DNA from: Thermotoga sp. SG1
GTDB taxonomy: Bacteria > Thermotogota > Thermotogae > Thermotogales > Thermotogaceae
Length of the DNA stretch: 64,000 bases
Direction of reading: 5' to 3'
NCBI RefSeq assembly: GCF_002865985.1
Contig: NZ_LNDD01000001.1
Span: forward strand, 62,001 to 126,000
Part shown: positions 20,336 through 49,462 of the stretch, piece after piece
Position numbering within the stretch: the first letter of the stretch is position 1
Layout: the number at the start of each line of letters is the position of its first letter
The notes under the pieces: generated by a model
Seen by the model: only the letters and a program-made list of their open reading frames with translations
Databases searched by the model: none
Told to the model about the DNA's origin: nothing
Made by a program: the position numbers and the translations under genes

Positions 20336-20400
20336 CACTGAAGGATATTCAATCTTCAAGTGTTCCCACCTTGTTATGGAAAACTTGCAATGTAGGAAAA

Positions 20401-22215
20401 GTTTCCATATTTCCAAGGTATGGTTGAAACAAATCACCAAGAACGACTTGGTGTTCTGGGATTTCTTGCTTCCGTACCTTTAGAAGGATTGAAACAGAAC
20501 CATAAATTGCCGGAAGGATGTAGGCTTGTGGTTTCCATACCTCTAAGGAAGTATTGAAACAAATCCGCCATATTCTCTTTGAAAAAGGTGGCGGCAGTTT
20601 CCATACCTCTAAGGAAGTATTGAAACGAGGGACCCAGAGTATTTCTAGCAATTGGAGATCCGTTTCCATACCTCTAAGGAAGTATTGAAACGAGACGGAT
20701 TCATCGTCGGAGAAGGATACGGAAGCTGGTTTCCATACCTCTAAGGAAGTATTGAAACTCACTCCATCCTTTCGAGGCTCCCAGTTTCGCTTGTTTCCAT
20801 ACCTCTAAGGAAGTATTGAAACCTGATGCGTGTGGGCTGTGAGGTAGATATCGCCGTGTTTCCATACCTCTAAGGAAGTATTGAAACCGCTACTGGAGGG
20901 CGCATTGGAACTCGGCATCCTGGACGCGTTTCCATACCTCTAAGGAAGTATTGAAACGCTTATGCGGAAAGCGAATTAAAAAGATATGCTTCAGGGTTTC
21001 CATACCTCTAAGGAAGTATTGAAACATTGAGAGGAGGTGAGTGACATGAGGAACGAATTTAGTTTCCATACCTCTAAGGAAGTATTGAAACGCATCCCCG
21101 GCTTTTTTATTTTTGCACGTTCAGTTTGGTTTCCATACCTCTAAGGAAGTATTGAAACCGTCTACACCTGAGGAGCCCGTCAAGGTTTTGTCTGGTTTCC
21201 ATACCTCTAAGGAAGTATTGAAACGTCGTCAATTGGGCAAAGGACCTTTATTATTCCTATGTTTCCATACCTCTAAGGAAGTATTGAAACGTTTTTCCTC
21301 GTGACGGTCCCTTCGTGGTTGGGATAGTTTCCATACCTCTAAGGAAGTATTGAAACCTGACCTGTTCTTCCGTGCTTTTTGCGATGCCTTTGTTTCCATA
21401 CCTCTAAGGAAGTATTGAAACAATTGCAAGACAGCGCGGTTGGATAAAAAAGAAAAGTTTCCATACCTCTAAGGAAGTATTGAAACCGTAAAGCACTCCG
21501 CCTTCCCAAGTTTCCAAATTTTGTTTCCATACCTCTAAGGAAGTATTGAAACAACTTCGTCAAGCGCGGGGTATGAAAAAACATAAAAGTTTCCATACCT
21601 CTAAGGAAGTATTGAAACCGGGAGGGTTTATTCCCTCCCGCGTTTGTTTTTTGTGTTTCCATACCTCTAAGGAAGTATTGAAACTTGTTGTAGCTTCAAC
21701 AGGTTCAACTGTTGTTGGGTAGTTTCCATACCTCTAAGGAAGTATTGAAACTCATCCTCGATTCAAGGTATTATACCCCGAAGGAGGGTTTCCATACCTC
21801 TAAGGAAGTATTGAAACTCATTCAATCCCTCCCTTATCGTTCTTGCCTATATATGTTTCCATACCTCTAAGGAAGTATTGAAACAGACTATTGCGGGAAA
21901 TGGGGTTGGGGTACAACTAGTTTCCATACCTCTAAGGAAGTATTGAAACCACCCAAGGATTACAAGAAGATCATCGGTGAGCATGGTTTCCATACCTCTA
22001 AGGAAGTATTGAAACAAAGTGGAACTGAATCTCTTGTGCAAGTCTCGATTGTTTCCATACCTCTAAGGAAGTATTGAAACGGGAAAACTCCCCGGTTTTC
22101 TTTTGTCCCACCTTTTTTGGTTTCCATACCTCTAAGGAAGTATTGAAACTCTGCGAGTCTCTCAAGGTCGACACGGTCAAGAAGAGTTTCCATACCTCTA
22201 AGGAAGTATTGAAAC
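20401..22215 (-). CRISPR. CRISPR array, 28 repeats and 27 spacers, probably transcribed leftward
   Basis: Twenty-six identical 30-base repeats, beginning GTTTCCATA and ending TATTGAAAC on the plus strand, start at 20531 and end at 22215; spacers are 34-40 bases. Two more repeats at the left end are degenerate: 20401-20430 (about seven mismatches) and 20468-20495 (two bases short). Degeneration marks the leader-distal end, so the leader is on the right, and a promoter pointing into the array lies at 22234-22262. On the minus strand the repeat ends in ATGGAAAC, the expected 8-base crRNA handle. The repeat is the Thermotoga type served by type I-B/III-B Cas proteins. No cas genes lie in this window. 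Confidence 0.98.
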
Positions 22216-22233
22216 CCGTTGGATTTCAAAGAA

Positions 22234-22262
22234 ATTATACCACAGAACATATCAGAAAGCAA
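22234..22262 (-). promoter_or_regulatory. CRISPR leader promoter
   Basis: Minus strand TTGCTT (22257-22262), a 17-base spacer, and a perfect TATAAT (22234-22239). Predicted transcription start is near 22227, about 12 bases before the first repeat, so it reads leftward through the whole array. Confidence 0.8.
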
Positions 22263-22840
22263 GAGTATATAAGAAGATAGAGAGGATGTTTCATCATAGG
22301 TGATTCTAACACACAGAAAGGGTCAGTCAAGTACTGTTTGGAAAAATGGAATAATTGCATAGTCAATGAAAAGCCTAAACCATGGCAAAAACAAAAGATA
22401 AATTACCCTAACCTAGGTCAGGCCATTTTGGGGTGTTTCAGGGGAAAATCAACTAGTTCTTGTTTTCACAAATTCTCGCAAAAAGGTCTACCTTAAAGTG
22501 TTAAAGGATAAGTATGTCGCTTCTTTATTTGTCGTCAAATCATAAGTTCATGTTCAAGTTATTTCTGAGTAGTTGTTTTCCTTTTTCGCTCATTATTCCT
22601 TTTTTATTGCATAGCTTCCGGTACCACAAAGGCGCATGAAATTTTTCGTTACCGGTAATTGCATACTCTGTATCTCCTTTCTAATGCTAAATACAAACAT
22701 ACCCTACTTTGTGAATGAATGGAACTTACCATGGTTTAGTGAATAAAACTGTGTGTTTCTAAACCAATATATTTCACACTAATATTTAGAAATAGAGGAT
22801 GAGTGGTAGAATTTTTCAAAAAGCATGAAGAGGGAAAAGC
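22263..22840. other. AT-rich CRISPR leader and intergenic region without a recognisable gene
   Basis: No open frame with a ribosome site is visible. It holds an 11-base inverted repeat (CTAAACCATGG at 22375-22385, its complement at 22729-22739), three copies of ATTGCATA (22354, 22606, 22658), and a short inverted repeat CCGGTA/TACCGG (22618-22623, 22650-22655). The right end must include the promoter of the LysE-family gene, but no convincing -35/-10 pair was found. Confidence 0.5.
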
Positions 22841-23464
22841 ATGCTTTCCGTATTCCTTGGGAGTTTCCTTGTTGGGCTTTCCGGTGCGATGGCACCAGGA
22901 CCCCTAATGGCAATTGCCATTTCAAAAAGTGCAAAAGACTGGAAAGCACCCCTGAAGTTGATAACAGGTCATGTTCTTCTGGAAGCCATTCTGGTGCTAT
23001 TACTGTTGGTCGGTGTTCAGGCAATTTTTCCACTCTTCATGAGGACGATTTCCCTGGCAGGAGGGAGTTTTCTTCTGTATATGGGAGTTTCCCAATTTTT
23101 TGAAGCAAAAAATCCATCTTTGAACATGAAAGCAAAAGACACAAAACTTCCACTGCCTATTCAAGGAGCTCTTGTTTCTCTTTCAAATCCCTATTTTCTT
23201 CTGTGGTGGTTTTCGGTCGGCAGTACATTCCTTTTTCAGACAAGAGAGTACCTTTTCCTTGGTATTCTTCTGTTCTACTTTGGTCACATACTTTCAGACA
23301 TAAGTTGGTATGCCTTCCTGGGTGTTGCTGGACAGTTTCTTAAAAGGCCTTCATGGAAAAACGTGTACAGGATTGTCCTTGTATCCATGTCGATGATCTT
23401 GATAGGGTTTGGTGTTTACTTCTTAATCTTTGCTTTCAAAGGAGACTTTTTTCACGTACTCTAG
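22841..23464 (+). CDS. LysE/RhtB family amino-acid exporter
   Basis: A 207-residue membrane protein with six predicted helices and the LysE signature near the N-terminus (GLSGAMAPGPLMAIAISKSA), then SLSNPYFLLWWF in the middle. The family exports basic or neutral amino acids and related compounds across the inner membrane. RBS is weak (GAGGG about ten bases before the ATG). Its 3' end overlaps the convergent aroQ gene by 42 bases. Confidence 0.8.
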   Translation: MLSVFLGSFLVGLSGAMAPGPLMAIAISKSAKDWKAPLKLITGHVLLEAILVLLLLVGVQAIFPLFMRTISLAGGSFLLYMGVSQFFEAKNPSLNMKAKDTKLPLPIQGALVSLSNPYFLLWWFSVGSTFLFQTREYLFLGILLFYFGHILSDISWYAFLGVAGQFLKRPSWKNVYRIVLVSMSMILIGFGVYFLIFAFKGDFFHVL

Positions 23465-23860
23465 CGCAAGTATGTAACCGTAAACTCCCAGCCCACTAAT
23501 TTGACCGTCACAAACTTCCGCGGTGACGCTCTTTCTTCTGAACTCTTCCCTCCTGTGTATATTAGATATATGAACTTCGACCTTGGGAACTTTTACAATC
23601 TCAAGAGCGTCTCTTATAGCGTAACTATAATGCGTAAACGCACCAGGATTTATCACAAGACCGTCGAAATCAAATCGATGTAGTCTATCTATAATCTCTC
23701 CTTCATGGTTCGACTGAAAGATCTCCACTTCCACACCGTTCTTTTTGGACCAGTCTTCTATCATCTTCACCAGATCGTTGTAGGTAAAGCTTCCATACAC
23801 ATTTTTGTCTCTTTTTCCCAGCATGTTCAGATTCGGACCGTTCACAACGAGTAGTTTCAA
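23423..23860 (-). CDS. aroQ: 3-dehydroquinate dehydratase, type II
   Basis: A 145-residue dodecameric type II dehydroquinase (shikimate pathway step 3). Motifs: NGPNLNMLGKR at the N-terminus, the flexible lid RDKNVYG with the catalytic tyrosine, FQSNHEGEIID, INPGAFTHYSYAIRDAL and VEVHISNIHRRE with the catalytic histidine. It is the last gene of the aromatic operon, overlapping aroKB by ATGA. Confidence 0.95.
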   Translation of the reverse strand: MKLLVVNGPNLNMLGKRDKNVYGSFTYNDLVKMIEDWSKKNGVEVEIFQSNHEGEIIDRLHRFDFDGLVINPGAFTHYSYAIRDALEIVKVPKVEVHISNIHRREEFRRKSVTAEVCDGQISGLGVYGYILALEYVKKVSFESKD

Positions 23861-25335
23861 TCTATCACCTCCAAAAGCTCAACAGGGTCTACTTCAAGGA
23901 ACTCCACCTTTCCAATTTCCTTCACGTAAGGAAGTCTCACTCTAGTTCCTTTCACAATCTTTTTGTCGTTCAGGATGAGATCTCTAGCCTTTTCTTTGTC
24001 AACGGATGGGACAGGAATGGGCAAGATCTCTTTGACTTTTTCAACGATCCACCTGAAGGTCTCCTTTGGAACGATCCCTCTTCTGTACAGATACATCGTT
24101 TCTCTTTCGATTCCCCACGCTACTGCTATACCGTGTGGGACCCCTTCAAGCATCTCGTAGACATGCCCAAGGGTGTGTCCCAGATTCAGAGCGTGTCTCA
24201 AACCTTTGTCGCAGGGATCTTCTATTACTATCTTTGCTTTTTCCTCCACCGATATCTTTACCATCTCACTGAGTATCCTAAGATTTCTTTTTCCTATCTT
24301 CTGTGGTTCATCGAAGAGTTCCAGCCCTCTCCCAGAAAGAAGTATCATCTTGAAGGCTTCCACCACCCCCTCTTCAAACCTTCCCTCATCCATTGAGAGA
24401 GTGACAACGGGATCTATGATCACGTAGTCCGGCATCCTGAAAGTCCCAACGATATTCTTTACCCCTGCAAAATCGATGGCGTTCTTTCCTCCGACGGAGG
24501 CATCAACCTGAGCAAGAAGGGTGGTGGGATAGAAAGAAAGTCCCACACCTCTTTTGAAGGTACTCGCCACAAAACCGGTGAAATCGGTAAGAGCCCCTCC
24601 TCCCACACCGGCAATGACCTTTCCTCTTGGAAAATCCATCTGTACAAGTTCATAATATGCCCTTGAAACATGCTCCAGCGTCTTCACCGCTTCTCCATCA
24701 AGAAAGACAAGGCAGTTTTCAGGAAGATATCTCCCGTAAATCTTTTTTACCCTCTCCGTGGTGAAAACCAGATCTTCGTTTTTTACCCTCTTGAATCCCC
24801 CAAGAACGATCTTCACAGGATGGGGCTTCTCCATCGCCGAAACTTCAACTTCGTCCATTGCCTCAAGCACAACAAGAGCGGTTGTTTCCCATTCGTTCAG
24901 TTTGGAAGTGTCGATCCTCTTGAACTCCGCGTAGAAGTGTTTTCTTTTCTCCCAGATCTCGTATATCTTTTCTTTACCCTCCTTGAGAAGAGGTCTGTTT
25001 TCCTCCGTCACCCTCTCAATCAGTACTTCGGGAGGAGCGTAGAGAAAAATGGTCTTCCCCCTCTTCAGGATATCCCTGTTTTCCGGATCTATCACCACAC
25101 CTCCACCCGTTGACACAACGATGTTGTCCCTTTCAACGAGTTCTTTCAAAAGCGCTTTCTCCTTCAGCCGAAAGTATTCTTCCCCGTCCTCTTCAAAAAT
25201 CCTTTTGATACTCCTTCCTTCTCTCTTCTCTATCTCATCGTCCATGTCTACAAATTCAAGATCGAGAACCTCTGAAACCTTCCTACCGATCGTACTCTTT
25301 CCAGAACCCATCATCCCAACAAGGAAAATCCTCAT
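23857..25335 (-). CDS. aroKB: bifunctional shikimate kinase / 3-dehydroquinate synthase
   Basis: A 492-residue fusion. Residues about 1-160 are shikimate kinase (Walker A GMMGSGKST, DDEIEKREGRSI, STGGGVV). Residues about 165-492 are dehydroquinate synthase (PRGKVIAGVGGGALTDFTGF, SFYPTTLLAQVDASVGGKNA, LNLGHTLGHVYE with zinc histidines, each quoted as a segment). It catalyses steps 5 and 2 of the shikimate pathway. The start overlaps the end of aroC by 53 bases, but AGGAGG lies seven bases before ATG 25335, so the overlap looks real. Confidence 0.95.
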   Translation of the reverse strand: MRIFLVGMMGSGKSTIGRKVSEVLDLEFVDMDDEIEKREGRSIKRIFEEDGEEYFRLKEKALLKELVERDNIVVSTGGGVVIDPENRDILKRGKTIFLYAPPEVLIERVTEENRPLLKEGKEKIYEIWEKRKHFYAEFKRIDTSKLNEWETTALVVLEAMDEVEVSAMEKPHPVKIVLGGFKRVKNEDLVFTTERVKKIYGRYLPENCLVFLDGEAVKTLEHVSRAYYELVQMDFPRGKVIAGVGGGALTDFTGFVASTFKRGVGLSFYPTTLLAQVDASVGGKNAIDFAGVKNIVGTFRMPDYVIIDPVVTLSMDEGRFEEGVVEAFKMILLSGRGLELFDEPQKIGKRNLRILSEMVKISVEEKAKIVIEDPCDKGLRHALNLGHTLGHVYEMLEGVPHGIAVAWGIERETMYLYRRGIVPKETFRWIVEKVKEILPIPVPSVDKEKARDLILNDKKIVKGTRVRLPYVKEIGKVEFLEVDPVELLEVID

Positions 25336-26413
25336 TCTCGAACCTCCTTTTCAGGTCGTTAATGTTTCCTTCGCCCAGGTGATCGAGCAAAACGGCCGAA
25401 ACTACCACAGAAAGAGCCGCCTCGCACACAACAGAAGCGGGAGGCACTGCGGTCACATCCGACCTCACGTACGGTGTTTTTTCGGGTTTCATCGTTCTCA
25501 GATCAACAGAATCCAGAGGTTTTCCTGTGGTGGGAATGGGCTTTATGTAGACGTTCACCCAGATATCCTCTCCATTGGAAATCCCACCTTCTATTCCACC
25601 AAGGTTGTTCGTTTTTCTCTTTATCCGACCATTCTCTATCTCAAACTCGTCCAGATAATCAAACCCGTACCACATCTCTTCACTTCCAATCAAAACTCCC
25701 TTAACGGCAGGAATGGCAAAAAAGAGTGCGCCTATTTTCGAATCGAGCTTTTCAAACAAATCCGAGTAACTTCCCAGTCCCGCTGGAACACCCTTTGCAA
25801 TAACCCTGACCTTTCCACCGAGGGTGTTTCCTTCTTCTTTCGCTCTATCGATCTCGGCGATCATCTCTTTCGTTGCTTCAGGATCGGGGCAGAAAACCTC
25901 CGATTCGTCTCTTCTTTTTTTCAATTCCTCGAAGTTATCTGGTATATCTCTTGCTTCGACGTTACCAAGTTTTGTGACGTATCCCAACACTTCGACACCG
26001 AACTCTCTGAGAAGACTCTTCAAGAGAGCACCTGCCGCTGTGAGAGCTACTGTCCATCTTGCACTGGATCGTTCCACGTAGATGTTCAGATCAGGGAGTT
26101 TGTATTTCACCCATGCGGCGTAATCGATGTGACCAGGTCTTGGGACACTTCGAACGTCCTTTACTGGGTTTGCCGCTTTGTTGGGAATGAGAATGGTCAC
26201 CGGTGCACCCGTTGTGATTCCTTTCCACAATCCTGAGACTATTTCGAACGCGTCCTCTTCTATCTTCATTCTCTTTCCTCTACCGTAGCAGTTTCTCCTT
26301 CTGAAAAGATCCCTTCTTATGAGATCCTCATCCACTCTTATCCCCGAAGGCAGACCTTCCAGAATTGCGACCATGTATTTACCATGGGAATCCCCCGCTA
26401 TTGTAAGCTTCAT
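25283..26413 (-). CDS. aroC: chorismate synthase
   Basis: A 376-residue FMN-dependent enzyme making chorismate from EPSP (final shikimate step). Signature pieces: GDSHGKYMVAILEGLPSG at the N-terminus, RRNCYGRGKRM, SARWTVALTAAGAL, GGIEGGISNGEDI and RSDVTAVPPASVVCEA. Start ATG 26413 overlaps the aroE stop (ATGA). Confidence 0.95.
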   Translation of the reverse strand: MKLTIAGDSHGKYMVAILEGLPSGIRVDEDLIRRDLFRRRNCYGRGKRMKIEEDAFEIVSGLWKGITTGAPVTILIPNKAANPVKDVRSVPRPGHIDYAAWVKYKLPDLNIYVERSSARWTVALTAAGALLKSLLREFGVEVLGYVTKLGNVEARDIPDNFEELKKRRDESEVFCPDPEATKEMIAEIDRAKEEGNTLGGKVRVIAKGVPAGLGSYSDLFEKLDSKIGALFFAIPAVKGVLIGSEEMWYGFDYLDEFEIENGRIKRKTNNLGGIEGGISNGEDIWVNVYIKPIPTTGKPLDSVDLRTMKPEKTPYVRSDVTAVPPASVVCEAALSVVVSAVLLDHLGEGNINDLKRRFENEDFPCWDDGFWKEYDR

Positions 26414-27171
26414 CTCAAAACCTCCCCGAATACGCCCCTGAATACTTCTTCAACGTAGATTCCCCATATCTTTAAGTTCTCCATCGCCTGGTAGTAGAAC
26501 ATGAGATTTCCCTTTATAACGTGTTTTACACCGAGTTCTCTCGCTTTCATAGTAAGCGGCGTGTCGAAGTAGATGACATCGTAAACAAGATCCAAGTTTT
26601 TCAACGAATCATCAGAAATGGCAAGCTTTTCTCCTTTCATACCAACCGAAGTTGTATTGAAAAGACTGTTTGCCTCCCTCACCATTTCATCGAGACGATC
26701 GAGGGAAAAGACCTTTACAGGAAAGCCCAGGTTTTTTGCCCTCTCGAGCGTTCTGTTCACTACCCAGATGTCTCTAACTCCCAGTTGAAGAAGAGCGTAA
26801 ATCACTGCTCGCGCCGCGCCACCTGCTCCCACAACAACGACGGGCTCTTTCACCTTCACACCTTCAAGCGATCTCACAACACCGACCCAATCCGTATTGT
26901 ATCCCTCTCTACGAAAAACGCAGTTGACCGCTTTTATTCTTCTTGCGTCTTCGGAGAGATTCACATAGCTAATCACTCTTTCTTTATGTGGAATGGTAAC
27001 GTTGAATCCATCGTATTCTTTTAAAACTCTTTTTATCTCGGCATCGAAGTTTTCCGGTGGTATCTCTTCCATGGTGTACTGATGATCCATTCCTGCTTTC
27101 TTGAAATACTCGTTGTACAGTCGAGGAGATATACTGTGCTTCACCGGATATCCAATGATGCAAAATCTCAT
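26410..27171 (-). CDS. aroE: shikimate dehydrogenase
   Basis: A 253-residue NADP-linked enzyme reducing 3-dehydroshikimate. Substrate motif [13 protein letters not shown], catalytic lysine in [10 protein letters not shown], Rossmann loop [16 protein letters not shown] and NTTSVGM are present. An upstream in-frame start exists, but the ATG at 27171 overlaps the aroA stop (ATGA), has AAGGTG upstream and gives the conserved [14 protein letters not shown]-terminus. Confidence 0.95.
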
Positions 27172-28430
27172 TTCATCACCTTCTCCAGCGTTTCGTAGAA
27201 ATTCGGGAACGAAACAGCCACACATTCGTGGTTTTTCACCTCAACTCCTTCTTCACTCACAAGACCTGCTATAGAAAAGAGCATGGCCATTCTATGATCG
27301 CCTTCTGGATCCACCACTCCACCCTTTATTCTCTGCTTCCCAGTGATCTTAAAACCATCTGTGAACTCTTCTATTTCGATACCGATCTTCCTCAAATTTT
27401 CCACAAGCACCCTTATTCTGTCTGATTCTTTTTTCCTCAACTCTTCGGCTCCTCTAACAACAGTTTCACCTTCCGCGAAAACACCAAGGAGTGCAACAAG
27501 TGGGAGTTCGTCTATCATGAGTGGTACCATGTCTTTCGGTACGGTGATTCCCTTCATGTTCGGAGAAGTTTCCACCCTCACGTTTCCTATCGGCTCGAGA
27601 TTTTCTTCTGTGACCTCCCACTCTATATTCGCCCCCATGAGTTTCATAACCTCAAGAAGACCTGTTCGAGTTGGGTTCAATCCCACTTCGGTTACTGTTA
27701 TGCGGGCGTTTGGATGGATCGCACCAAGAACGATGAAGAATGCAGCAGACGATATGTCCCCCGGTATCTTCATCTCGAACCCTCTGAACGTGGCCGGCTC
27801 CAGAACCACTCGTGTTCCTTCCACTTCGACGGGAACTCCTAAATTTTTGAGCATTCTTTCTGTGTGGTCTCTACTCTTTGATGGCTCAATGACGATCGTT
27901 CTTCCGCTTGCCCTGAGCCCTGCTAGAAGAATGGCACTCTTCACCTGAGCACTAGCCACCGGTGTTTTGTAACTGATACCCGAAAGGTGATTCCCCTTTA
28001 TGGCCATTGGAAGAAAGTTGTTCTGCCTTGCCATGAAGCGTGCGCCCATCATCTCCAGGGGTTCTATAACCCTTCTCATCGGCCTTCTGGAAAGAGAAGA
28101 ATCCCCGTAGAGAACCGTGAACATCTCGTACGAGGCAAGAACTCCACTCATCAACCTTGTTGTGGTCCCCGAGTTTCCACAGAAAAGAGGTTCAATTGGC
28201 TCGGAGAACGGTTTTGGAAAGACCTTCATCTTTTCCCAATCACCTTCAAAACGTGTACCGAGCTTTTCTAGAATGTCATGTGTTCTCTCCGTGTCCAGAC
28301 ACCTCAGAAGGTTGTAGAGAGTGCTTTCGCTCTCTGCAAGGGCTGAAAGGATGAGCGTTCTGTGGGTTATGGATTTGTCCGGAGGAACACTCAGCGTTCC
28401 GAAGATTCTTTCTGTGGGAAGAATCTTCAT
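27168..28430 (-). CDS. aroA: 3-phosphoshikimate 1-carboxyvinyltransferase (EPSP synthase)
   Basis: A 420-residue EPSP synthase. Visible motifs: [17 protein letters not shown] (PEP/shikimate site), [33 protein letters not shown], and [15 protein letters not shown] near the C-terminus. Normal length. Start ATG 28430 overlaps the tyrA stop by four bases. Confidence 0.95.
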
Positions 28431-29188
28431 GCTACCACTTCCTTTATGATTTTTTTCAGACTCTCGAAGTCTTCTCTCTCTATGAGATTGTAAAGAGTGT
28501 TCAGGAAATTTCTTGCATTTTCAAGGTACTTGAGGATGTTTTCTTTATTATATCTGATCATATCCATCGCCATTTCCATGTTCTGTCTTGAAAGCCTCGT
28601 GTTCGACTGATAGCCCGGTCCTGCGTATTCTTCAAAAGGCTTTCCCATGAACCGAGCGCTCAAAGAGATCAAATACTGTACATGACTCACAGCGGCAACG
28701 ATCTTGTCGTGTTCTCTGTAATCTATCCAGACTGGCCTGGATCCAAGATCCTCCACAACACCTTCAACGACGTCGTCTTCCTTTCCATCGGGAGAACAGA
28801 GAAAAAAGATCCTTCCGATGAACATCTCGGGGTCCCATCCTGCTTTTCCCTTCCTCTCGTTTCCCGCCATGGGGTGTCCTCCGATGAAGTTCAGACCCCT
28901 TTCTTTTGCTATTTCCATGAAGGGGGTTTTCACGCTTGCCACATCCAAGATCTTTCCTGTGAACTCAGTCTCTCTCAAAAAGCGCTCTTCAGCAGCCATT
29001 GGAAGCGCCAGGATGAGAAGATCGGTGTCGAAGAGTTCTTCCTGTTTCGAAACAACTTTTATCCCTCTTTCCTCAAGGGCCCTTATCACATCCCTGCTTT
29101 GATCGAAGGCGAGAACCCGGTGCTTTTCGTTCAACTTCAGAGCGATAGATCCCCCTATACATCCTGCCCCCAGTACAGAGATCCTCAA
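28427..29188 (-). CDS. tyrA: prephenate dehydrogenase
   Basis: A 253-residue TyrA without a chorismate mutase domain: Rossmann [20 protein letters not shown], and the catalytic histidine stretch [11 protein letters not shown]. It makes 4-hydroxyphenylpyruvate, committing the operon to tyrosine. It lacks the C-terminal ACT domain found in some relatives, so feedback would fall on the DAHP synthase and on the leader-peptide attenuator. ATGA overlaps on both sides. Confidence 0.93.
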
Positions 29189-30201
29189 TTCACCTTCACC
29201 CCCAGGGCCTTGGCAAGTTCTTTCATCTCCCGGACCAGTTCCTCAAAGAGCTTGAAATCAAGGCTTTGTTTTCCGTCAGAAAGTGCTCTTTCAGGTTCTG
29301 GATGAACCTCTACCATGATTCCGTGTGCACCGACGGCTATTGCTGCGCGGGAAAGAGGGATGACAAGATCTCTTCTTCCACCCGAGTGGCTCGGATCCAC
29401 AAGAATGGGAAGGTGCGATTCTTTCCTGATGATCGGAACAGCAGAGATGTCGAGGGTGTTTCTTGTTGCCTTCTCGAACGTCCTTATTCCTCTCTCACAC
29501 AGGATGATCTTTGTGTTTCCTGAATTTGCTATGTACTCTGCTGAGAGTAAAAACTCTTCGATGGTGTTCATGAAACCTCTTTTCAGAAGAACGGGTTTGT
29601 CGTAACTTCCCGCTTTTGAAAGCAACCTGAAATTTTGAGCATTCCTTGCACCGATCTGGATGATATCGGCGTATTCAGCCACCTTTGGAAGTTCTTCCTC
29701 ACCGAGTGCCTCTGTCACAACGTACATACCGTACTTATCTGCAGCTTCTCTCAAATACTCCAGTCCTTTTTCTCCGAGCCCCTGGAAGGAGTAGGGTGAT
29801 GTTCGAGGCTTGTAGGCTCCTCCTCTCAACACCTTCACACCGAATTCGCTTAGAAAGTGTGCGATCTCCATGAGCATCTCTCTGTCTTCCACTGCACAGG
29901 GCCCTGCCATGATGGTGAAGTATCCGTTTCCTATCTTCACGCCTCCAAGGTCTATCACCGTATCTTCTGGATGGAACTCTCGCGAGACGAGTTTGTAGGG
30001 TTTGAGAACTCTCACAACACTCTCAACACAATCCAACGACTCGAATTTGTCTGCCACCACGTATCTGTCATCACCTATGATACCTATCACCGTACGCTCC
30101 TGACCTTTGGAAACGTGACACCTCAGATTGTAACTCTCTGCCAACTTCACCACCTTCTTTATATCTTCTTCCGTAGAACCGGGCTTTAAAACCACTATCA
30201 T
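29185..30201 (-). CDS. aroF: DAHP synthase, type I-beta with N-terminal ferredoxin-like regulatory domain
   Basis: A 338-residue 3-deoxy-D-arabino-heptulosonate-7-phosphate synthase, first enzyme of the shikimate pathway. An N-terminal ferredoxin-like domain (about 1-65) is the tyrosine-sensing module known in T. maritima. The barrel carries the metal ligands Cys102 (MAGPC), a histidine in VDPSHSGGRRD, a glutamate in MVEVHPEPE and a late aspartate. First enzyme gene of the operon, behind a leader-peptide attenuator. RBS GGGAGG. Confidence 0.95.
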   Translation of the reverse strand: MIVVLKPGSTEEDIKKVVKLAESYNLRCHVSKGQERTVIGIIGDDRYVVADKFESLDCVESVVRVLKPYKLVSREFHPEDTVIDLGGVKIGNGYFTIMAGPCAVEDREMLMEIAHFLSEFGVKVLRGGAYKPRTSPYSFQGLGEKGLEYLREAADKYGMYVVTEALGEEELPKVAEYADIIQIGARNAQNFRLLSKAGSYDKPVLLKRGFMNTIEEFLLSAEYIANSGNTKIILCERGIRTFEKATRNTLDISAVPIIRKESHLPILVDPSHSGGRRDLVIPLSRAAIAVGAHGIMVEVHPEPERALSDGKQSLDFKLFEELVREMKELAKALGVKVN

Positions 30202-30231: not shown

Positions 30232-30336
30232 AAAAAAAGGGCTCCGCTGCCCGGAGCCCTCTGGTGTTTTCTATCGCTCCGGGCAGATACCGAAAGAGGC
30301 ACCTGCCCGGAGCGGTTGCACTCACGGACAGGTGCC
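30232..30336 (-). promoter_or_regulatory. transcription attenuator (terminator/antiterminator) of the aromatic operon
   Basis: Four RNA segments on the minus strand. A (30336-30325, inside the end of the leader ORF) pairs with B (30309-30298) over 12 pairs with one U-G. An overlapping B stretch CGCTCCGGGCAG (30314-30303) pairs perfectly with C (30286-30275). C also pairs over 11 perfect bases with D (30257-30247). D is the 5' arm and loop of an intrinsic terminator: GGGCTCCG / CGGAGCCC (30259-30252 and 30246-30239) plus seven U. So A:B with C:D allows read-through, and B:C with the terminator stops transcription. Confidence 0.85.
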
Positions 30337-30405
30337 CCTGTTAAACCAAAAGTAATAATAATTGTGTTCAATGGATTTGATGCATAACACATGTTCGTTT
30401 TGCAT
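30322..30405 (-). CDS. aromatic-amino-acid leader peptide
   Basis: A 27-codon frame, ATG 30405 to TGA 30322, with Shine-Dalgarno GGGGTGA about seven bases upstream. Codons 16-21 read Tyr-Tyr-Tyr-Phe-Trp-Phe, six aromatic residues in a row, followed by Asn-Arg-Gly-Thr-Cys-Pro-stop. The last five codons overlap pairing segment A of the attenuator. Full translation masks A, frees B to pair with C and lets the terminator form. A stall at the tyrosine codons leaves A free and favours read-through. The peptide itself probably has no function. Assignment is by sequence logic, not homology. Confidence 0.87.
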   Translation of the reverse strand: MQNEHVLCIKSIEHNYYYFWFNRGTCP

Positions 30406-30430
30406 AATCTTTCACCCCTGTTTGGTTACT

Positions 30431-30459
30431 ATTCTAGCAAAGCATGCCAGAAAAATCAA
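30431..30459 (-). promoter_or_regulatory. promoter of the aromatic operon
   Basis: Minus strand TTGATT (30454-30459), 17-base spacer, TAGAAT (30431-30436). Predicted start near 30424, just before the leader-peptide ribosome site. The -35 box overlaps the stop of the upstream MFS gene. Confidence 0.75.
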
Positions 30460-49213: not shown

Positions 49214-49462
49214 TCAAAACTGAGATTCTATTTCTTTTATTATCCTTTCTTCCTCGTTGATCTCCTCCACGACTCTGTTGAGATCTTCCAGAACCTCTTC
49301 AACATCCAGCCCTTTCTTTTCACAGGCGTCCTTTAAACTTTCCATCTTCGCACAGCAGGTGTCAAAACCGTATTTTCTAAGTACCCTTTCCAGTCTTTCA
49401 TGGGCTTCCATGATTTCCTTGAGAGTGGTATCCTCTCTTATCTTCTCAATCACTTTCCTCAC
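49214..49462 (-). CDS. DUF542 / ScdA-N-like small protein
   Basis: An 82-residue helical protein matching the N-terminal domain of ScdA/RIC iron-sulfur repair proteins: TLKEIMEAHERLERVLRKYG, then GFDTCCAKMESLKDAC and DVEEVLEDLN. The C-terminal hemerythrin-like diiron domain of full ScdA is absent. The two adjacent cysteines may bind metal or an Fe-S cluster; placement in a copper operon fits repair of copper-damaged clusters (inference). Start overlaps the previous gene by 17 bases. Confidence 0.75.
   Translation of the reverse strand: MRKVIEKIREDTTLKEIMEAHERLERVLRKYGFDTCCAKMESLKDACEKKGLDVEEVLEDLNRVVEEINEEERIIKEIESQF

Follow-up and report, generated by a model that had tools for sequence, protein, structure and literature searches.

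Organization of the leader and the downstream operon

The window, the whole 64-kb stretch of Thermotoga sp. SG1 DNA analysed here, carries on its minus strand seven contiguous and mostly overlapping genes for the synthesis of chorismate and tyrosine. All seven were identified by Pfam in the order aroF-tyrA-aroA-aroE-aroC-aroKB-aroQ. Coordinates refer to the window.

29185..30201, minus strand: aroF, DAHP synthase with a ferredoxin-like regulatory domain (PF00793 + PF18152), first gene of the putatively regulated operon
28427..29188, minus strand: tyrA, prephenate dehydrogenase (PF02153 + PF20463)
27168..28430, minus strand: aroA, EPSP synthase (PF00275)
26410..27225, minus strand: aroE, shikimate dehydrogenase (PF08501, PF01488), given as the longest ORF; translation probably begins within it, closer to 27171
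25283..26413, minus strand: aroC, chorismate synthase (PF01264)
23857..25335, minus strand: aroKB, shikimate kinase-dehydroquinate synthase fusion (PF01202 + PF01761 + PF24621)
23423..23860, minus strand: aroQ, type II dehydroquinase (PF01220)

AroF matches PDB entry 1rzm over its whole length. We take 1rzm and 3pg9 to be the Thermotoga maritima DAHP synthase, which is feedback-inhibited by tyrosine; one signal would therefore act on both the enzyme and the transcript. Upstream of aroF, an MFS transporter gene on the same strand ends at 30456, and the following elements lie between the two genes or at the border of the first.

30431..30459, minus strand: sigma-70-like promoter, with -35 TTGATT (30459-30454), a 17-nt spacer and -10 TAGAAT (30436-30431)
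30413..30419, minus strand: Shine-Dalgarno sequence AGGGGTG of the leader ORF, read directly from the bases
30322..30405, minus strand: leader ORF MQNEHVLCIKSIEHNYYYFWFNRGTCP of 27 codons, ATG at 30405 and TGA at 30324-30322, read base by base
30343..30360, minus strand: putative sensor, codons 16-21, Tyr-Tyr-Tyr-Phe-Trp-Phe (TAT TAT TAC TTT TGG TTT), read base by base
30325..30339, minus strand: segment A AGGGGCACCTGTCCG, the final codons of the leader, able to form 15 pairs with B
30295..30314, minus strand: segment B CGCTCCGGGCAGGTGCCTCT, with A or C as alternative partners, from folding and alignment
30275..30286, minus strand: segment C CTGCCCGGAGCG, with B (12 pairs) or D (11 pairs) as alternative partners
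30247..30260, minus strand: segment D AGGGCTCCGGGCAG, 5′ arm and loop of the terminator, from folding and alignment
30238..30246, minus strand: segment E CGGAGCCCT, 3′ arm of the terminator, from D:E pairing
30232..30238, minus strand: T run (T7) of the intrinsic terminator

The earlier note, written from the bases, had described this promoter, a 27-codon leader with six consecutive aromatic codons, four mutually exclusive RNA segments of which the first is the last codons of the leader, and the seven-gene operon. Base-by-base reading, folding and Pfam bear out each of these elements; there are five segments if the terminator 3′ arm, E, is counted. Of the 15 pairs of the A:B helix, two are G-U. 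The B:C helix (30314-30303 with 30286-30275) and the C:D helix consist of 12 and 11 perfect pairs, respectively. The D:E terminator spans 30260-30238, and the T7 run that comes next ends at 30232, about 30 nt from the aroF ATG (30201). A promoter-like site was looked for between the terminator and aroF and none was found. Because this gap is too small for a second promoter and holds no such site, aroF transcripts must cross the terminator.

Chance and specificity of the leader

The leader RNA is much more stable than its dinucleotide shuffles (MFE z = −7.6), none of 200 of which was equally stable. For the aromatic run itself, chance was assessed by a scan of the 64-kb window and a pattern search of the genome. 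Across its six reading frames, the window holds two runs of six aromatic codons, and the genome has two matches to TWYTWYTWYTWYTGGTTY, a pattern related to the run. As the run alone is not unique, the weight falls on its combination with a promoter, a Shine-Dalgarno sequence, a terminator and conservation across the phylum, and this combination excludes chance. The second run in the window is at 49226 on the plus strand (TTC TAT TTC TTT TAT TAT).

A covariance model of the leader, which contains the columns of the aromatic run and is thus partly informed by it, has exactly one match in each genome of the genus, each before aroF. The model also matched a relay-like arrangement in G031 (locus L162, G031:C17:15289-15399), where an aromatic leader, MKKNYGFFAYFYINSTYR, precedes a chorismate-mutase-like ORF; the aroF search gave no match in this genome. 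A match in G099 (E 1e-4) is on inspection an ordinary terminator. A sister attenuator for Trp was sought at trpE of these genomes, where no aromatic leader was found.

Conservation and covariation of the four helices

The four-helix arrangement, in which A, B, C, D and E can pair in succession, precedes aroF in each of the seven genomes of the genus and in one other genus of the family, and we refer to it as the relay. It is also present in families f5 (L013) and f11 (L014-L016); in L013 and L014, it precedes an extra gene, which itself precedes aroF. Among relatives, the Shine-Dalgarno sequence is kept as GGTGA or GGTGG (alignment A1), and the frame, the start and the aromatic run of the ORF are conserved while its N-terminal half drifts.

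Covariation was computed on A3, an alignment of ten sequences. In the read-through fold (A:B + C:D), 96.0% of cells are paired, and two-sided changes occur in six pairs, a number reached in 0 of 500 shuffles. For the terminated fold (B:C + D:E), 99.5% of cells are paired, with five such pairs (2 of 500 shuffles). When the partner was slid by one to three columns as a control, only 30–54% of cells remained paired, with fewer two-sided changes. By helix, A:B is paired in 97.9% of cells and has five pairs with two-sided changes (columns 23, 25, 26, 28 and 29); three of the 12 B:C pairs (columns 49-51) and two D:E pairs (columns 110 and 113, in a helix with 100% of cells paired) likewise change on both sides. 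C:D is the weakest helix, with a two-sided change in one of 11 pairs (column 87) and both end pairs broken in f11. Thus, the conserved aromatic codons and compensatory stem changes that the earlier note had named as a check are present, the latter in all four helices. The near-invariance of the core would be explained by the two partners of every inner segment, since most of the core could then not change alone.

These alignments bear on three other accounts of the locus. A structured 5′ leader with a terminator ahead of an amino acid operon is also what a ligand-binding riboswitch or a T-box would look like, with the small ORF incidental. Against this, a search of the leader against Rfam returned no family at gathering score, and the few matches at E ≤ 1 were weak and irrelevant. 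Moreover, the frame, start and aromatic run are conserved although the N-terminal codons drift, and the run is preserved in meaning rather than in letters (YYYFWF, YYYYWF, FWFYSY, FWFYY, YYYYF), so we give a riboswitch or T-box very little credence. Because the MFS gene on the same strand ends at 30456, the hairpin could instead be the mere terminator of that gene, with aroF served by its own promoter. This reading is highly improbable: the T run is only about 30 nt from aroF with no promoter-like site between, the leader and terminator persist in relatives together with a promoter of their own, and a plain terminator needs no covarying A, B and C. Finally, the nascent peptide might arrest the ribosome by sensing a metabolite or an antibiotic rather than through slow decoding, and its C-terminal N(R/K)GTCP is indeed conserved in the genus. 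This motif, however, is the coding of segment A and changes with it (RWGVYP in L013, YIDTCP in L015), and the aromatic residues interchange freely, which fits decoding and is unlike a specific arrest peptide; such an arrest is accordingly a very doubtful explanation.

Ribosome position and the predicted switch

In the trp, his and pheA attenuators of Escherichia coli, a leader contains codons for the regulated amino acid, and the position of the ribosome selects between mutually exclusive helices that include an intrinsic terminator. The Thermotoga locus has the corresponding parts: a short ORF of conserved frame and predicted translation, with a promoter and a Shine-Dalgarno sequence, ahead of an operon; clustered codons for the end product of the pathway (Tyr-Tyr-Tyr-Phe-Trp-Phe before a chorismate and tyrA operon); an intrinsic terminator between the leader and the first gene; and, by computation, exclusive antiterminator and terminator folds chosen by the position of the ribosome. 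We therefore propose, with high confidence, that the leader is a ribosome-mediated transcription attenuator through which the availability of charged aromatic tRNAs, and of tRNA-Tyr in particular, would set expression of the whole chorismate/tyrosine operon. The two parts of this reading differ in strength: a leader-peptide mechanism is very likely, and a read-through default of the untranslated RNA is plausible.

Folding of the nascent RNA is consistent with such a switch. When the RNA ends at D and A is free, A:B (14–15 pairs) and C:D (10–11 pairs) form at 37, 65 and 80°C. Stalls on the Tyr codons leave both helices as they are without a ribosome at all three temperatures. With the ribosome at the stop codon, B:C forms, D is free and there is essentially no C:D, again at all three. 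These calculations, with energy parameters extrapolated to 80°C and an assumed ribosome footprint that extends 12 nt from the first base of the A-site codon, support the proposal of the earlier note that a stall at the tyrosine codons would leave A free and full translation would cover it. In a codon-by-codon scan, with all RNA up to the front edge of the ribosome masked, A:B and C:D are intact for stalls up to codon 19, weaker at Trp20 and lost from Phe21. Because the antiterminator survives stalls at Tyr16-18 and Phe19, is weakened at Trp20 and is abolished at Phe21, the sensor should read mainly Tyr, with contributions from Phe19 and Trp20. By the measure of terminator-arm sequestration at 70°C, the switch point lies about two codons beyond the aromatic run.

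The same scan was applied across Thermotogota loci. For 22 of 32 loci, it places the computed ON/OFF switch no more than two codons from where the aromatic run ends; random placement would give 7.5, and the comparison is descriptive because the loci are related. Families f9 and f7 show no clean switch by the terminator-arm scan. The codon scan supersedes an earlier generic test, which used shuffled spacers as the control and compared how far the terminator arm is sequestered when the ribosome stands on the first aromatic codon or at the stop. The generic test did not discriminate in many loci, because it allowed upstream-downstream pairing across the ribosome and because the stop codon of f10 leaders is located well beyond A.

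In the proposed mechanism, transcription would begin just 5′ of the 27-codon ORF. A shortage of Tyr-tRNA, or of the tRNA that decodes Phe19 or Trp20, would stall the ribosome within the aromatic run before its front edge reaches A. A would then capture B, C would capture D before E is made, and the polymerase would enter aroF. With an ample supply of aromatic tRNAs, the ribosome would reach the stop codon and cover A, so that B would pair with C and D with E, and transcription would end at about 30232. Untranslated RNA would behave as the stalled state and be read through. Beyond the observed anatomy, conservation, compensatory changes and folding behaviour, we infer termination and read-through in the cell, the dominant amino acid and the default state.

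In E. coli trp, a stalled ribosome covers segment 1, the 2:3 helix forms, and untranslated RNA terminates. The Thermotoga leader differs in that the stalled ribosome leaves A free and the untranslated RNA is predicted to read through. The earlier note had asserted this default, and the calculations divide on it. The nascent folds support it, whereas the full-length RNA without a ribosome adopts the terminated fold B:C + D:E (MFE −76.6 kcal/mol); at equilibrium with A free, this fold is favoured at 37°C and nearly balanced with its alternative at 80°C. Read-through must consequently be kinetic. The terminated fold at 37°C is what would be expected of an attenuator with the classical polarity of E. 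coli trp, in which read-through comes only from a stalled ribosome, and a loss of expression when translation is lost (‘super-attenuation’), the opposite of our prediction for Thermotoga, has been measured for Listeria ilv (PMC5864092). On the other side, RNA ending at D gains stability by folding into A:B and C:D: relative to the best fold of the RNA that ends at C, its energy is lower by about 15 kcal/mol at 37°C and by about 8 kcal/mol at 80°C. With this gain before E is made, the growing transcript should be trapped in the read-through fold. When untranslated, leaders of other families (see next section) should likewise keep the terminator blocked through an uncovered A. We consider classical polarity unlikely, though a good deal more credible than the alternatives discussed above, and retain the default-on attenuator as the preferred reading.

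Aromatic aroF leaders across Thermotogota

Of the 103 Thermotogota genomes searched, 60 contain an aroF match. Forty-three loci have a full-length aroF and enough upstream sequence, and we scored an ORF as a leader if it lay inside the 280 nt upstream of aroF and contained a six-residue stretch with four or more aromatic residues. By this definition, 35 of the 43 loci have an aromatic leader, compared with 4.7 expected from shuffles; the loci are related, and such counts are not independent events. The aromatic leaders of L013 and L014 lie farther upstream than 280 nt, and L018 and L024 encode SYYYIM, below the four-in-six threshold. The scan detected no aromatic leader at L010 (G017, family f6), upstream to about 6 kb, or at the aroF orthologue L093 (G066, f10). 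Upstream of the leader, 28 of 33 loci carry a sigma-70-like promoter (2.7 expected), and a terminator between the leader and aroF is found in relatives as well. The aromatic character is conserved across the phylum while codons and residues change, e.g. YYYYYHHPRL (L026), EYYYYYWFRKTPTLVPLL (L109), FFYAYWFRGMPSS (L096) and NKYYWYFSKTPILVALF (L097). Operon content is variable, with several shikimate genes generally kept downstream of aroF. The putative system is thus not confined to Thermotoga: leaders rich in aromatic codons precede aroF across the phylum, in many cases with a simpler architecture.

In this simpler, direct form, found in f8, f10, f2 and f3, the segment just 3′ of the aromatic codons can itself pair with the 5′ arm of the terminator, as GACACCCAUUUUGG can with CCAAAAUGGGUGUC in L097 and GGAAUGCCCUCUUCC with GGAAGAGGGCAUCC in L096. 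Second copies of aroF in f3 and f10 (L115, L117, L119 and L121) also have aromatic leaders (FWWFYYAGVHPRPPAVLR, YWWFYYYAGVHLRPPAVLS, YCYYYAGEHLWSPAGFVV and YYYYTGGRLWSPVVFDV), followed by GUGCAUCCACGG-like segments whose apparent pairing partner is the terminator arm CCGUGGGUGCAC. On the modelled pairings, the direct form and the relay share the same sign, with a free A giving read-through, because the relay only inserts two extra segments between A and the terminator arm. Family f9 (L018-L024) may depart from this pattern. About 110–180 nt upstream of aroF, it has conserved WINA codons before the Tyr run (ATAAATGC), which are complementary to segment C (GCATTTA). As a lead, a ribosome on the Tyr codons might cover the WINA segment, and untranslated RNA might terminate in this family.

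We tentatively conjecture, at somewhat less than even confidence, that aromatic leader control of the shikimate operon is ancestral in Thermotogota and has as its core a default-on attenuator, whose segment next to the sensor codons would keep the terminator blocked until a ribosome advances over it. Some lineages would have this pairing in the direct form, Thermotogaceae and allies would have extended it to a four-helix relay of the same sign, and f9 would perhaps have an added pre-sensor segment that restores a default-off state. Outside the phylum, aroF orthologues of deltaproteobacterial/Desulfobacterales MAGs (L062, L059 and L089) have Trp/Phe-rich leaders (QFWWCW, FWFWW and FWCWWYPF, respectively) before terminators; these leaders resemble Trp attenuators.

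Relation to known attenuators

The his attenuator of E. coli has a chain of alternating segments comparable to the Thermotoga relay. Leader-peptide attenuation is already known, and leaders of aroF in particular have been reported in Corynebacterium and proposed in Acholeplasma; what is new is the occurrence in the phylum Thermotogota, the relay and direct architectures, and the predicted default state. In Corynebacterium glutamicum, the aroR leader peptide likewise precedes an aroF operon, and stalling raises transcription (Neshat et al. 2014, via PMC11802643; PMC4046766). The phylum is another one, the aromatic stretch of aroR, Phe-Tyr-Phe, is short, and the reported response is to Phe rather than Tyr. 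A four-helix relay is not described in the parts of these sources available to us, and the likeness to the Thermotoga leader is one of function, taken from the papers and not from sequence. Similarly, in the uORFC-13-1 motif of Acholeplasma, aroF is preceded by a terminator and, upstream of that, by a candidate uORF that includes one or more Phe codons (PMC8632094); the motif is a prediction confined to Acholeplasma and environmental sequences, and its structure is described as different. The direct form of Thermotogota is resembled by the Corynebacterium ilvB-II motif (PMC10272879), a uORF with a terminator whose arm can pair with the loop region of an upstream hairpin spanning the uORF. This motif has branched-chain codons, precedes other genes and lacks a relay.

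Besides their own case in Firmicutes, Naville and Gautheret (2010) knew of leader-peptide attenuators from Proteobacteria and Actinobacteria only (PMC2965389). We found no published description of the present system in Thermotogales or Thermotogota; an earlier prediction may be contained in Lopatovskaya et al. 2010 (Mol Biol 44:128; cited in PMC4833913). Attenuation is not mentioned in the portion available to us of the main text of the T. maritima transcriptome paper (Latif et al. 2013, PMC3636130), where Thermotoga promoter regions are said to offer little room for transcription factors, nor is the system mentioned in the available portion of a survey of RNA regulators that includes Thermotogales (PMC3766115). 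The leaders described here would add an attenuator of this kind to a deep-branching, largely thermophilic phylum, and in Thermotoga the whole aromatic pathway would sit under one tyrosine-weighted RNA switch. With a predicted default opposite to that of E. coli trp and two architectures of the same sign in one phylum, they would also offer a test bed for the evolution of attenuators, and for transcription-translation coupling at 80°C.

Elsewhere in the window, the overlapping ORFs at 20349-22280 are spurious: their recurring peptides FNTSLEVWK / FQYFLRGMET are translated from a direct repeat of about 30 nt, and the region looks like a CRISPR array.
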